From the NCBI RefSeq assembly GCF_019457635.1, contig NZ_CP080412.1, positions 744,001 through 808,000 on the forward strand: DNA of 64,000 nucleotides, given 5' to 3'. This document shows, piece after piece, positions 7,995 to 32,492 of the stretch (position 1 is the stretch's first letter; the number at the start of each line of letters is the position of its first letter). Below the pieces are notes generated by a model. That model was not told the DNA's origin, searched no databases, and saw only the letters and a list, made by a program, of their open reading frames with translations. This DNA is from Shewanella mangrovisoli (GTDB taxonomy: Bacteria; Pseudomonadota; Gammaproteobacteria; Enterobacterales; Shewanellaceae). The position numbers were made by a program, and so were the translations under genes.

Positions 7995-9520
<1,526 letters not shown>

Positions 9521-27886: not shown

Positions 27887-28165
27887 ATGTATAAAACCGC
27901 AGCCGCAGTGCATATCCTTGTTAAACACAAAGAGCAGGCGGAAGATATTATTAAGCAATTGAATAAAGGCGCGAATTTTGGCGCGTTAGCCAAGCGCTAT
28001 TCCTCATGTCCGTCGGCGAAAAAGGGCGGTGATCTCGGTGAATTCAAGCGTGGGCAAATGGTGCCGCAGTTCGATAAAGTCGCTTTTTCTGGTGAGTTAT
28101 TAGTGCCACATCTCGTTAAAACCAAATTTGGCTGGCATGTGGTGAAGGTGTTGTATCGCACTTAA
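27887..28165 (+). CDS. ppiC: parvulin-type peptidyl-prolyl isomerase
   Basis: A 92-residue cytoplasmic parvulin. The single domain is recognised from [50 protein letters not shown] and [12 protein letters not shown]. The start was placed at the internal ATG at 27887, after AAAGAGAG, because PpiC proteins begin directly with the domain; the frame is open further upstream. It is the last core gene before the cassette array. Confidence 0.92.
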
Positions 28166-28253
28166 ACAGGTTGCGTTAATTGAGTCAATAAGCTGACCTA
28201 TCGACGCATTAAGCTGCATCTAAACACCAATCTAAACGCTTATTTTCAAAAAA

Positions 28254-28322
28254 TAGTTAACCGTGCGCGTTTCCTGTGTTCTCACGGGATAAACGCGCAA
28301 ATGCACGAATAAGACGTTAGCT
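28254..28322 (+). repeat. attC-like site 1 (left end of array)
   Basis: AGTTAAC at the left and GTTAGCT at the right are complementary apart from one base. Inside, GTGCGCGTTT pairs with AAACGCGC, and CCTGTG with CACGGG. The spacer between R'' and L'' is shorter than normal, so it is less certain than the sites downstream. It shares the block AGTTAACCGTGCGCGTTT with site 2. Confidence 0.5.
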
Positions 28323-28336
28323 TCTGGTATGTGTAA

Positions 28337-28774
28337 ATGGATTTAAAACAAACAAATTTGCAGAGCATTCTCGACAGACTTTATAAGACTGCGTTGTCAC
28401 TACTCCTCCCACAATTAGGATTACTCACCATAGTTGGTTCAAAAAGTGACCAATATACTTTTTTACTGATGTTTATTGTTTTTCTAGCTGTGAATATTCT
28501 CATTCCCGTATGGTTACTCCTCTTCAACACTGGTAAATCAAAAATTGATTCATTTTCAATCACAATAGACGACCAGAAAATGCTTGTTTCGACCTATGGT
28601 GAAGTCCAGCAGATAAATAGAGCTTCATATTGTGGCTATAAAGTTACTTCGCAGTATCCAAAGCAAATACAACTATTAGAGGCTAACGGCGAACATATAG
28701 AGTTTAGTTACTACGCGTTAAATAAAGAGCAAAGGAACCGCTTGTTTGATTATTTGGGACCCGCGAAAAGCTAA
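28337..28774 (+). CDS. cassette-encoded membrane protein, unknown function
   Basis: A 145-residue product I do not recognise. Two hydrophobic segments lie at ~20–36 and ~42–62. A ~75-residue soluble C-terminal part follows, with strand-rich character (SFSITIDDQKMLVSTYGEVQQI; ASYCGYKVTSQYPKQIQLL), resembling small membrane-anchored PH-like domain proteins. Its ATG lies 20 bases after the GTTA core of attC-like site 1 and its stop codon TAA falls in an AGCTAAC sequence, the usual cassette arrangement. Base composition is lower in GC than the neighbouring core genes. Confidence 0.7.
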   Translation: MDLKQTNLQSILDRLYKTALSLLLPQLGLLTIVGSKSDQYTFLLMFIVFLAVNILIPVWLLLFNTGKSKIDSFSITIDDQKMLVSTYGEVQQINRASYCGYKVTSQYPKQIQLLEANGEHIEFSYYALNKEQRNRLFDYLGPAKS

Positions 28775-29247
28775 CAATCTGATCTAATCGCTCCCTTCGA
28801 ACGCAGGGACAAAATATGGGGCCGCTGGGCGAATACGGCCCATGTACTTACCCCTAAGTGTGGATGTTATCCATAAAAGTCTAAAGCTAAAGCCAACGAC
28901 TTAGAGTAAAAACTAACGCGTTTTTGCCCCATTCCGTGTTTCGGTTCGTTAGCTCAATCTAAAATTCCCTCTCCTGCTGCCATACATATTCTTATCTATT
29001 TGCCTATGTTTGGCCTTACCAGAAATCGGCTAACAATGTATGGGCATACAGTCGTATTTAAATTTAGGTGTTTTGGTGTGATTTTCAGATAAAATCAGTG
29101 CGCACTAATTCTATCCGCAATAATTAAAGCTCTATAAAATCAGGTGAATATAGTAACTGAATTTTAGTTAATAGGTTTGGAAAACGCGCATGCGCGTTTT
29201 TCCAGATGGTGTATTTGGCAGAAAGCTGATAAATTCTTTGCATACAG
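28775..29247 (+). other. non-coding part of cassette 1, with hairpins and a CGCGC palindrome
   Basis: About 470 bases without an ORF. The ORF stop sits in AGCTAAC (28770–28776) and a matching GTTAGCT occurs at 28948–28954; a GTTATCC is at 28866. Either could be the right end of a degraded attC, but L boxes do not pair well. GGGCCG/CGGCCC and TCCCT/AGGGA hairpins lie at ~28800–28850. A nearly perfect 25-base palindrome with GCGCATGCGC at its centre is at 29179–29203, and shares its CGCGC/GCGTTT arms with attC-like sites 1 and 2. Confidence 0.5.
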
Positions 29248-29317
29248 ATAGTTAACCGTGCGCGTTTTCACTGGTCCAACGAGGTAAACGCGCATGCACA
29301 CTAATCAAATGTTATGT
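29248..29317 (+). repeat. attC-like site 2
   Basis: It begins ATAGTTAACCGTGCGCGTTT, as in site 1, and the arm pairs with AAACGCGCATGCAC. The right end is GTTATGT at 29311–29317, with TTAAC as the left partner. The box spacing is atypical. Confidence 0.5.
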
Positions 29318-29332
29318 GAGCAAAAGGAAATT

Positions 29333-29800
29333 ATGACCATTCATCAATTTGATATTTTTGCAGACTATTTTCAGCTTTATCTCATGGATGATGAAGCTGA
29401 CGATGATACGTCGGAAATATGGACGGATGATGCGCTAGATATAAAACTAGCAATAGCAAAGAATACGGTTGCTGTCGGTACTTATCGGAATGTCGATGTT
29501 AAATTCGAACTTGAGATAGTCGATAATGAGCCAAAAGTGGATTTGCAATTATGGGATCATGCATCTTTGGGCTTTGTAAGCTTTCCTTCGGGTAAGTGTG
29601 CTGTTTTTGGTTGTACAGATTATTTGCCTGATGCAAAGCGTATCGAACTGCCTAAAGGTAATTATGCTGTGTTATCTCTGGCTAAGGGGCTCGATTCAAT
29701 AACTGTTGAATGGGAGCCAGCTGACGATTTTTATAAGGTTATTTTATGGCCGTCTAATGTTAAAGAGTTTAGGTCGTTAAAGCGGTATGAAATCACATAA
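29333..29800 (+). CDS. cassette-encoded ComJ/Nin-like protein
   Basis: A 155-residue acidic soluble protein. The layout HQFDIF … WTD.AL … LPKGNYAV recalls the ComJ/Nin family, whose Bacillus member inhibits the DNA-entry nuclease NucA. This is recognised from memory of the family pattern only and needs a profile search. The start was placed at the ATG at 29333, preceded by AAAAGGAAA, rather than at an upstream ATG inside the attC arm. Its stop TAA overlaps the next attC site, and no partner nuclease is adjacent. Confidence 0.72.
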   Translation: MTIHQFDIFADYFQLYLMDDEADDDTSEIWTDDALDIKLAIAKNTVAVGTYRNVDVKFELEIVDNEPKVDLQLWDHASLGFVSFPSGKCAVFGCTDYLPDAKRIELPKGNYAVLSLAKGLDSITVEWEPADDFYKVILWPSNVKEFRSLKRYEIT

Positions 29801-29899
29801 CAAACGGCTCAACCGGACAAATATTTGCTGTCACCTTTTTTGCAAAGGGCCGCAAAAAAGCAGCCATCAAACATTTGCGCGGTTAACCGGGCGTTAGAG
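29795..29899 (+). repeat. attC site 3
   Basis: The left end ACATAAC-AAACGG-CTCAACCG pairs with the right end CGGTTAA-CCGGGC-GTTAGAG, giving matched R and L boxes with extra unpaired bases on one strand, as in attC hairpins. The core GTTAG is at 29893–29897. The stop codon of the preceding ORF lies inside R''. Confidence 0.88.
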
Positions 29900-29904
29900 C
29901 ACCT

Positions 29905-30297
29905 ATGAAATACGTACTACTTTTCACGCTAATGTTAATTTCTGGGTGCGATACGCTCCACGGTTTGCGCCTACCGGTAAAGCCAGCGTATGAAGGGAGT
30001 TGGGATTGTGTATATGACAATATTGCCTCTATCAATCTTAAGGCTGAGCCTAGTAACGAAAACCAACTATCAATATCTAGCAATGAAAGCGGTAAGTATT
30101 TGTTCTCGGTAATGCCAAAAAATGGAAACAAAATGGAGCTGTACTTTATGCAAATGCATGCTGCCCCCAGCTGTGAAGAGGCCAACGTTTCACTTATAAA
30201 AATGAAAGAGTTTTTACAATTAATGGAGCAGCATTGCGGCTATAACTCATCGTCCTACGAAACAAGTATGGAGTGCAGCTCTAACAAGGCAATTTAG
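29905..30297 (+). CDS. cassette-encoded small lipoprotein, unknown function
   Basis: A 130-residue exported lipoprotein. The signal MKYVLLFTLMLISGC has a lipobox with Cys15. The mature part is strand-rich, contains four further Cys residues (WDC, PSCEE, HCGY, MECSS) that could form disulfides, and shows no recognised domain. The ATG lies 12 bases after the GTTA core of attC site 3 and the stop falls inside attC site 4. No clear ribosome-binding site is present, as is common for cassette ORFs. Confidence 0.75.
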   Translation: MKYVLLFTLMLISGCDTLHGLRLPVKPAYEGSWDCVYDNIASINLKAEPSNENQLSISSNESGKYLFSVMPKNGNKMELYFMQMHAAPSCEEANVSLIKMKEFLQLMEQHCGYNSSSYETSMECSSNKAI

Positions 30298-30410
30298 CTC
30301 GCACCAGCAAGCTGGTGCTGGACAAATTTTCCGTGGCTCGTTTTGCGCTTTAACGCTACGCTAGCACAAAACAATCCACTCCAAATTTGCCGCTAATTGC
30401 GGCGTTAGAT
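30279..30410 (+). repeat. attC site 4
   Basis: The left end CTCTAAC-AAGG-CAATTTAGC pairs with the right end GCTAATTGCGGC-GTTAGAT. The right core GTTAGAT fits the GTTRRRY consensus exactly. The 132-base site has a long central stem (CACCAGC/GCTGGTG). The last codons of the lipoprotein ORF overlap its left end. Confidence 0.9.
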
Positions 30411-30425
30411 GTCATGGAGGAAACC

Positions 30426-31049
30426 GTGCACATATTCGTAAGCAGACCTACTTGGGTTTCCTCTGATTTTGAGGCAGGCCTAGACACGTTCTTGAAATCT
30501 CTAGCGCATATGGGAATAACACCTAGAACGCTAGGCTCAAGTGACTACCCAAGTAAAGCACCTCTTGATGAAGTAATTGCGATTATGGACGAATGCCAAG
30601 GTGCAATCGTTCTTGGTTATCCTCAAATACAAATTACAGGAGGAAGCATCAAAGAATCCTCGCTTGAGAATGAATTAACTTTGGGCACCGAATGGAATCA
30701 TATAGAAGCTGCTTTGGCATATTCGAAAGGGCTACCACTGCTAGTTGTTCACCATACAACAGTATCAAGAGGCGTGTTTGATCGAGGCGTCATGAATGCA
30801 TTCCTCCACAGCGTCGATCTAAAATCCCCAACTTGGTGCATGAATACATCTTTCGATGGTGCACTTACAAAATGGAAGGAACACTGCAAGTCTGGAAACT
30901 CAAATTTCATTGCAGGCGTTACCATTGACCCAACCAAACCTACATGTCCAAACTGCACAACAAAAGCAAAGGCAATATACCTTAGTAAGCTGCCAAAAGG
31001 TTTCAGCCTCGGAAAGTGGCGGTGCCCAGTCTGTAACTACCTTGAGTAG
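30426..31049 (+). CDS. cassette-encoded TIR/deoxyribosyltransferase-like protein with zinc ribbon
   Basis: A 207-residue soluble protein. Residues ~1–145 have an alternating strand/helix pattern with VHIFVSRPTW, GAIVLGYPQ and EWNHIEAALAYSKGLPLLVV. This recalls the flavodoxin-like nucleotide-binding folds of TIR-like and nucleoside 2-deoxyribosyltransferase-like proteins, where the conserved Glu before A.A acts in glycosidic bond cleavage. The C-terminus holds a zinc ribbon: CPNC at ~174–177 and CPVC near the end. The chosen start is GTG at 30426, nine bases after GGAGG; an ATG at 30414 is the alternative. Family assignment is an inference from pattern only. Confidence 0.7.
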   Translation: MHIFVSRPTWVSSDFEAGLDTFLKSLAHMGITPRTLGSSDYPSKAPLDEVIAIMDECQGAIVLGYPQIQITGGSIKESSLENELTLGTEWNHIEAALAYSKGLPLLVVHHTTVSRGVFDRGVMNAFLHSVDLKSPTWCMNTSFDGALTKWKEHCKSGNSNFIAGVTIDPTKPTCPNCTTKAKAIYLSKLPKGFSLGKWRCPVCNYLE

Positions 31050-31055
31050 CATGAC

Positions 31056-31132
31056 GTCTAACTATGCGCTCAAATCGTTCGCTTCGCTCACTGGGACTGG
31101 CTAAAGCCAGCCCCTTAGCTTAAACGTTATGC
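31056..31132 (+). repeat. attC site 5
   Basis: GTCTAAC (exact RYYYAAC) at 31056–31062 and GTTATGC at 31126–31132 bound a 77-base hairpin whose centre is CTGGCTAAAGCCAG. The stretch GCCAGCCCCTTAGC resembles the right half of Vibrio VCR repeats. L-box pairing is weaker than in sites 3, 4 and 6. Confidence 0.75.
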
Positions 31133-31151
31133 ATTTTGGGGTAATCACATA

Positions 31152-31511
31152 GTGATTCGGGCAATTAAAAGTCAGTTAAACTTACAACCTCATTTCTACG
31201 CTGAATCAGCGAGAGTTGGCGGTTTCGGTTGCATACTTGGTGGAGTATTAGCGTTTTACCTTTTCCAATATATTTCATCGTTCTTTGGTATAGCCACTGA
31301 TGTCCCTATCCGGCAGTATGATCAAACGATAGTTGTTTTTATGTTCGCAAGCTGCCTCTTAACGCTTATTCTCTGTGTGTACATATTTTGTGTTTTATCA
31401 GCTTTCATTTACTACGGAATTAAGTACCAAAATGGACTCATTAGTAAAGACGAGTTTATAAATATCTCTTTTAAAGGTGTTTACCCAAAGCGCTGGCAGA
31501 AAGGCTATTGA
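31152..31511 (+). CDS. cassette-encoded two-helix membrane protein
   Basis: A 119-residue protein with two transmembrane segments (~24–48 and ~62–88). A short basic C-terminal tail carries GIKYQNGLISKDEFINISFKGVYPKRWQK. I do not recognise the family. The start codon is GTG with GGGG about ten bases upstream. It begins 20 bases after attC site 5 and its stop lies seven bases before attC site 6. Confidence 0.7.
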   Translation: MIRAIKSQLNLQPHFYAESARVGGFGCILGGVLAFYLFQYISSFFGIATDVPIRQYDQTIVVFMFASCLLTLILCVYIFCVLSAFIYYGIKYQNGLISKDEFINISFKGVYPKRWQKGY

Positions 31512-31517
31512 AAAATG

Positions 31518-31594
31518 CATAACAAACGCCATCAAACGCCGCTTTGCAGCTCGACTCGCAACAAGTTGCTCGCGTTTGTGGTGGGCGTTATCTC
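31518..31594 (+). repeat. attC site 6 (right end of array)
   Basis: The left end GCATAAC-AAACGCC-ATCAAACGC pairs with the right end GCGTTTGTGGTGGGC-GTTATCT. R and L boxes match and there is an unpaired extra base, as in canonical attC hairpins. It is 77 bases long. The sequence AACAAACGCC is also the start of Vibrio VCR repeats. Confidence 0.9.
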
Positions 31595-32081
31595 CATAGA
31601 TATTTTTATCTAAAACAGACTCGTTAGAGTTAAGGTTTTAACTCGAAAATGTCCCTTTTCTTTTACGTACGTATCGAAAATGGGGAGTAAAAATTGGCAT
31701 TGGGGCACCAGTGACCGTTGGCGACATGGATGTCGCCGTCGAGCCTATAGGGATATATTCACGGCGAGTCACTGGGGAAACAATGACAATAAACTCCATA
31801 AATAGATAAAAAGATTAATCGCTTTCGTCCCCAAACGAGTTACTCATCTTCCTTCAAAACAAACAGGCGACATCGATGCTAAACAGGAGAACCATGGCGA
31901 TTAGCGAGACCACAGTCCACCTCAAGGCAGCTTTTGGCTGCCATGCTATCGCGACCTTTAAGGTGTTAGCCTGCGCATTAAAAACGCAATTGAAGTTGCA
32001 TCAATCGGTAAATTTTTACGGGGTTAGATTTGCTTATTCGATGTGCGATGATGATTTGCCGTGAAATCACCTGGAGGCGCG
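31595..32081. other. intergenic region right of array, nested inverted repeats
   Basis: About 490 bases without a credible gene. GAGTTAA-GGTT-TTAACTC is a perfect hairpin at 31627–31644. CCAGTGAC (from 31708) and GTCACTGG (31768–31775) enclose a second perfect hairpin, GGCGACA-TGGA-TGTCGCC at 31720–31737. The whole looks like a folded element of ~75 bases, repeat or RNA. A 62-codon ORF at 31876–32064 has no ribosome-binding site or recognisable product and was left out. Confidence 0.5.
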
Positions 32082-32492
32082 ATGAGCTTTAACTTTGATA
32101 CCTACCGTTTTAACACTGAAGATGCGATTCAAGTGTGTGTCGGCGCCTTTGCGCTCGCCGTGCCTATTGGGTTTTCGGAGGAGGCGTGGCAACTCGGGGA
32201 GACCTTGCCGCTGCTGAATCTGTTGATGTTGTTTAGCTTGTCGTTACTGTTCCTCGGGGTATTTACTTACCAGAGTGTGTTCCAACAGAATATTCGTTAC
32301 CGTCTGCCAGTATTTATTTTTCGGATTGTTATGGCCTATCTGATTAGCGCCTGTGTGGTGAGTTTGGTGCTCCTTTGCCTCGATAAATTGCCCTTTATTG
32401 ACGACCCTCTGACCTCCATTAAACGGATTATCGTGATTACCATGCCAGCCTCTATGGGGGCGATTGTGGTGGATAGTTTCGATAAGGAGTAG
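32082..32492 (+). CDS. DUF2391-like integral membrane protein
   Basis: A 136-residue inner-membrane protein with about four transmembrane helices. It begins MSFNFDTYRF and continues VCVGAFALAVPIGFSEEAWQLGETLP, typical of the DUF2391 group of putative integral membrane proteins of unknown function. The start was placed at 32082, after GGAGGCGCG; the frame is open seven codons further upstream. It may share a transcript with the PspB-like gene 120 bases downstream. Confidence 0.75.
   Translation: MSFNFDTYRFNTEDAIQVCVGAFALAVPIGFSEEAWQLGETLPLLNLLMLFSLSLLFLGVFTYQSVFQQNIRYRLPVFIFRIVMAYLISACVVSLVLLCLDKLPFIDDPLTSIKRIIVITMPASMGAIVVDSFDKE

Follow-up and report, generated by a model that had tools for sequence, protein, structure and literature searches.

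How a string of gene cassettes came to lie between two core genes of Shewanella mangrovisoli, with no integrase beside it, is the question raised by the interval between ppiC and a DUF2391 gene in this genome. The window that we analysed is a stretch of 64,000 nucleotides (C1:744001-808000) of the complete, 4,712,843 bp Shewanella genome, and an initial annotation of it had read five open reading frames (ORFs) in this interval as a sedentary cluster of attC sites lacking an integrase (CALIN). We find that the interval holds two tandem platforms, each led by an attI site and neither accompanied by an integrase: unit 1 spans 28253-28930, and unit 2 spans 28931-31655. The best explanation, in which we place good confidence, is that they belong to a set of attI-led platforms distributed over the chromosome, with an integron integrase (IntI) acting on them in trans, and that the unit itself is perhaps mobile.

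The attI sites and the layout of the interval

The segment at 29161-29314 (+ strand) is, judged by its sequence, an attI site. Its counterpart in many Shewanella genomes lies between intI and the first cassette, with identities of 85-92% in the best matches and of 88-92% to the attI flanking Shewanella intI; the window segment is 88% identical to the intI-proximal attI copy of its own genome, and its homology to the intI-side segment ends at the GTT where cassettes start, with the crossover at G29311|TT. Moreover, it can be aligned over its length to attI2 from the R721 class 2 integron with a score of 48 (the highest of 500 shuffles was 35), and the IntI of the same genome shares 64% identity with IntI2. 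The minimum attI2 core, AATAAAATGTT (PMC12901181), occurs exactly in 39 of 55 attI copies, and the copy in the window is one base off (AATCAAATGTT). A diverged version of the last 67 bp of this attI, 74-81% identical to attI copies, lies at 28253-28320 (+ strand), where it heads unit 1. The initial annotation had counted two looser left sites as attC; neither 28253-28320 nor 29250-29314 scored as attC, and both are parts of a dispersed repeat that shares homology with the intI-side attI.

The attC sites themselves were sought on both strands of the window (128 kb) with a profile of 42 sites from intI-adjacent arrays of other Shewanella genomes and a covariance model of 27 sites from intI-proximal arrays of other Shewanella. 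A plain scan for RYYYAAC...GTTRRRY with arm complementarity was dropped as too noisy in favour of these two. The profile search returned four sites and nothing else, all on the + strand. Three are strong and are the only significant matches in the 128 kb: 29795-29899 (profile 53.0; covariance model E 9.8e-8), 30279-30410 (51.8; E 4.9e-6) and 31517-31593 (40.0; E 4e-6). These are the three sites that had been called clear, the last of them as 31518-31594, so that the suggested check by covariance model bore out three sites (E from 9.8e-8 to 4.9e-6). The highest profile scores in 2 Mb of Markov-random sequence were 38.5, 27.5 and 24.4, and seven reached at least 20.3. The fourth site, 31056-31132, which had been described as good, received weak support from the profile (20.3, a score expected by chance about once per 300 kb) and was missed by the covariance model; its support comes mainly from its place between two ORFs. 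Three attC sites are thus secure and the fourth rests partly on location. At gathering thresholds, Rfam gave no match in the window.

The boundary between the two units comes from a comparison of right ends. Sequence immediately left of unit 2 (28868-28930, terminating TTTTTGCCCC) aligns with the right-end consensus of the dispersed units at a score of 25, where the maximum of 2000 shuffles was 16, and the interval therefore contains two units in tandem. Unit 1 consists of the diverged attI copy, one cassette and this right end. Unit 2 consists of a leader (28931-29160), the attI, four cassettes, four attC sites and a right end (31588-31655, terminating AAAATGTCCC) of a kind conserved past the last attC in many dispersed arrays; all of these features are on the + strand. 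The leader has six copies in the genome, groups with 43 copies across genomes, and is common to dispersed attI units, unlike the region upstream of intI. The repeated attI and the conserved right end had both been overlooked in the initial annotation, and the grouping of five ORFs into one array does not hold for the first of them, c1, which sits in the separate, older unit 1.

No confident family or function was found by PADLOC, NCBIfam or Pfam for any of the cassette proteins, whose genes all lie on the + strand. In unit 1, c1 (28337-28774) encodes a 145 aa membrane protein with weak PspB similarity and is present in all five strains compared; in four related strains the attI-like copy at 28253-28320 is conserved along with ppiC and c1. 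In unit 2, c3 (29333-29800; 155 aa) belongs to no known family, as does c4 (29905-30297), a putative lipoprotein of 130 aa. The 211 aa product of c5 (30414-31049) has a C-terminal zinc ribbon by weak Pfam matches and weak similarity to nucleotide-binding proteins, and its AlphaFold model is poor (predicted local distance difference test, pLDDT, 43), while c6 (31152-31511) encodes a 119 aa membrane protein. The set c3-c6 occurs at no other fetched locus.

The core flanks are a ppiC-like peptidyl-prolyl isomerase gene on the left (27887-28165, + strand), which stands beside DUF2391 in other Shewanella, and a DUF2391 membrane protein gene on the right (32082-32492, + strand; PF09622 E 1.7e-9). 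Examination of this interval in relatives, another suggested check, found the two genes nearly adjacent in several other Shewanella and differing inserts between them in strains of the same clade, whose members closest to this strain include Shewanella sp. ANA-3 (G112; NC_008577.1), G083 (4,706,287 bp), G082 and G113. Together with the profile and covariance-model matches, this bears out the claim of a cassette array inserted after ppiC with no integrase near it. At two loci in other genomes (G039:C1:4016094-4016465 and G072:C1:5158377-5158904) we observed a sequence of about 95 bp, corresponding to the 3' part of ppiC, in additional tandem copies. A repeat at 31687-31790, inverted beside other arrays, was considered as an element end and rejected as a general intergenic repeat with about 30 genome copies; it is often inverted beside attI units, and its end resembles the TTTTGCCCC border.

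An ordinary CALIN, formed by insertion of cassettes into a non-canonical attG site downstream of ppiC or by decay of an integron that lost its integrase, would also leave an array with no intI near it; CALINs and single cassettes are reported to be common in Shewanella (PMC9229058), and attG insertion is discussed in other papers. We nevertheless consider it very improbable here, since a recognisable attI forms the left border, preceded by a leader of the dispersed type that is unlike the sequence upstream of intI, and since the decay of one integron would not give some ten attI copies. The label of sedentary CALIN accordingly stands in so far as no intI is near and at least two attC sites are present, and fails in that the array is headed by an attI and is one of about ten such platforms.

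Dispersed attI copies and the integrase

The chromosome carries nine strong attI copies, those of the window and of the intI locus included, and one weak copy. The deeply searched genomes, eight with this one, gave 10 here (G000), 11 each in G083, G052 and G040, 18 each in G113 and ANA-3, 7 in G074 and 4 in G064. Many related strains have about a dozen copies and no integrase gene; in several intI-free genomes the count is 11. One or more copies occur in 64 of the 127 genomes in the genus sample, and among the 29 with at least four scored copies, 15 are without an intI above the family cut-off. The copies head arrays. All eight strong copies of this chromosome that are not beside intI are followed by one to four same-strand attC sites, as are 38 of 40 fetched copies from ten other genomes (one to seven sites), and none of the 40 has an attC upstream, within a view of about 600 bases, or on the reverse strand. 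In genome-wide covariance-model searches of three genomes, 10 of 14, 12 of 15 and 18 of 34 attC sites lay within 6 kb downstream of an attI copy on the same strand (0.09, 0.11 and 0.24 expected by chance), and none lay upstream of or opposed to one. Dispersed attI copies therefore head most arrays in two of these genomes and about half in the third.

Most attI copies of the chromosome lead a differing small gene set. A tree of the copies shows no clear clustering by locus as against genome, and in 11 of 26 cases the nearest copy came from the same locus. Two further loci of the chromosome were noted in passing. At C1:2733593-2734781, three attC sites have no listed attI copy near them and form a CALIN in the strict sense. 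At C1:2190.7 kb (L196, about 8169-9246), an ORF resembling IS110-family transposases directly follows a dispersed attI copy in which the GTT crossover is lost (AATAATGAA), which suggests insertion at the attI crossover.

No tyrosine recombinase was found in the window, in agreement with the initial annotation, and the genome-wide intI search that it had proposed returned one strong intI in this genome (C1:4634494-4635375); measured around the circular chromosome, it is about 850 kb distant. A one-base frameshift at codon 26, shared with G082, probably leaves the gene inactive unless slippage occurs in translation. G083 and ANA-3 gave no intI above the cut-off, and contig C2 of G113 bears strong intI matches. 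With the resident gene frameshifted and none in G083 or ANA-3, the source of the integrase behind these arrays would be a past gene, a plasmid (as the matches on G113 C2 may indicate) or another strain. At the intI locus of this genome (L015 4416-8086), the first insert at the intI-proximal attI includes a pair resembling a type I restriction-modification system (721 and 500 aa), and the block is also present in G082, at the ppiC locus.

We hypothesize that an IntI of the Shewanella/IntI2 type, supplied in trans from one locus, from a plasmid or from a past resident gene, would put attC circles into any attI copy, so that the integron would be spread over the chromosome and not confined to one array. 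Because the only chromosomal intI is frameshifted, the arrays of this strain are probably fixed at present, barring the arrival of an integrase.

Possible spread and use of the attI unit

The borders of the attI units recur. Among the 55 copies, 43 have one common type of leader, unlike the sequence upstream of intI, and 10 have the intI type; a few of the latter kind lie in genomes without intI. On the left, 12 copies of the clade begin directly past T(n)GCCCC; on the right, a segment of about 70 bp terminating TGTCC(C/A) stands past the last attC in many arrays. The intI platform, at 99% identity, is at rsmJ-cyoE in this genome and after ppiC in G082, with an identical right border (CTTTTGTCCC) at both loci and different flanks past it. 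This pattern suggests insertion at TTTTGYCCC, and the common borders ending in that motif suggest that the attI unit is itself mobile. With less assurance than for the integrase in trans, we propose that the attI unit, which measures about 460 bp in its empty form, may be mobile and spread by joining the chromosome at TTTTGYCCC; its joining sites would include right ends of units inserted before, and this would account for the tandem in the window. The fuller form of this proposal, a miniature recombinase-free mobile platform (leader, attI and right end) that multiplies on chromosome and plasmids, gathers cassettes through a trans integrase and outlasts intI, we rate at somewhat less than an even chance.

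The attI copies might instead be immobile relics of many separate integron acquisitions in which intI was later lost. That copies within one genome are 88-98% identical, and not identical, would fit such a history, as would the intI-type upstream sequence that some copies retain in intI-free genomes. A dedicated leader not derived from intI on 43 of the 55 copies argues the other way, as do constant borders and the stacking of units in tandem at the same border, and we judge this account unlikely.

Plasmids extend the distribution of the unit. The attI segment was found on 30 plasmid records from eight genera. On the conjugative plasmid pNX2019-MW2 of Moellerella (L278 6001-7195), an intI-free attI unit stands directly before a dfrA1 cassette. 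On the IncC plasmid pN069_1 of Enterobacter (L273 2820-7443), the unit directly follows the last genes of an element resembling a strand-biased circularizing integrative element (SE), namely those for a 634-aa tyrosine recombinase and a 132-aa protein, and precedes fosG; an acetyltransferase cassette is also present. By match coordinates, attI occupies the same place after SE-like genes on Citrobacter and E. coli plasmids, and genes related to the SE-like pair occur in intact order on Vibrio plasmids. On pMT14, a plasmid of Vibrio furnissii (L279 11290-14936), an SE-like element carries a group II intron and qnrS2 as cargo, and TTTGCCC and TTGTCC lie near the cargo borders.

These arrangements raise the sub-hypothesis, compatible with distributed platforms served in trans, that a tyrosine-recombinase integrative element of the SE/Tn554 kind moves the units, which would be its non-autonomous derivatives. 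SEs copy out and leave no empty site (PMC9345347), use imperfect terminal repeats and a 6-bp spacer (PMC9345347, PMC10214605), and are most frequent in Shewanella (PMC10214605). SE-type copy-out would suit a multiplying attI unit and is offered as a lead only. Alignment of the right end of the unit to the ends of Vibrio SE elements gave no significant similarity, and no such integrase was identified in this genome in a search through PF00589 only; an SE-kind mobiliser is a tentative and somewhat doubtful proposal.

Past use of the dispersed sites is suggested where strains differ at one locus. At locus 1054k, this strain and G113 have 3.9 kb of left flank, the leader and attI in common; they differ only in the stretch from the attI crossover to an attC R', where one strain has one cassette and the other two, and the rest of the array is common. 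At locus 2651k, this strain and ANA-3 show a like pattern of first-cassette exchange between the attI crossover and attC R'. Two loci thus display exact first-cassette exchange at a dispersed attI, and in all 18 same-locus comparisons the block running through attI stops no more than 8 bases from the crossover. Cassette exchange could also come from homologous recombination of whole arrays between strains, with no IntI acting at dispersed attI; the leaders and right ends offer homology, and several strains are without any intI. The two cases break exactly at the attI and attC R' crossovers with the remaining cassettes common, which makes such recombination a quite unlikely source of the differences.

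Several points weigh against distributed platforms served in trans. Most of the 18 comparisons share the attI segment only, so that they stop at the crossover by construction, and few share the leader or a long left flank. Putative recombination at the dispersed attI copies has indirect support in the cassette exchange between strains. The fourth attC of the window is weak. Joined flanks gave no clean empty site, so that mobility of the unit would follow from repeated borders, and a sigma-70 consensus scan of 28900-29345, which covers the leader, gave no match that could serve as a cassette promoter (Pc), such a scan being weak evidence. The earlier proposal that a distant IntI could still move the array is compatible with the exact first-cassette exchange at two other dispersed attI copies; the resident intI carries the frameshift at codon 26.

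Implications and comparison with known systems

Integrons are usually described as a single integrase with a single attI and a single array. The present chromosome combines some ten attI-led arrays with at most one integrase, and such platforms offer an origin for many integrase-less arrays. We found no description of dispersed attI copies in a literature search that left out preprints and most subscription papers, and their novelty is provisional. If the miniature mobile platform is true, many Shewanella 'CALINs' would be attI-led platforms, and the landing site would be the unit of integron mobility. The dispersed copies make both a trans-acting IntI and the spread of attI directly testable. 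Surveillance of resistance by screens that rely on intI would miss the intI-free attI units that carry dfrA1 or fosG on conjugative plasmids. Standard software cannot recognise attI-led arrays because attI outside class 1 is not searched for, as in IntegronFinder 2 (PMC9024848), and such arrays would be labelled CALIN or SALIN (single attC site lacking an integrase).

The nearest known systems are class 2 attI2 and the chromosomal integron of the Shewanella oneidensis type (SonIntIA), with which the present system shares an attI homologous along its length, the core AATAAAATGTT, an IntI 64% identical to IntI2 and cassettes that begin at the GTT crossover; it differs in its roughly ten dispersed attI sites, all but one intI-free and most with another leader. 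As in a complete integron, the window array has an attI head and attC sites in one orientation, but intI is not adjacent to attI. With CALINs it shares at least two attC sites and no intI near; unlike a CALIN, it has its own attI (29161-29314) and so is not headless as that class is usually understood, a matter of usage and not of the software definition. Insertions seeded at attG also place cassettes far from intI, though the left border here is a 154-bp attI with a shared leader and not a chance core-like site of the host. Elements of the SE/Tn554 kind lie directly upstream of the attI unit on the IncC plasmid, occur in Shewanella and have inserts that lie between short repeated borders, as the unit appears to do, whereas the orphan attI units are without recombinase genes and the comparison with SE ends was not significant. 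Finally, delta-attI gene cassettes (PMC12901181) also carry attI sequence away from its usual place, but theirs is a truncated attI that replaces attC at the 3' end of a cassette in mobile integrons, whereas here a whole attI heads the array.

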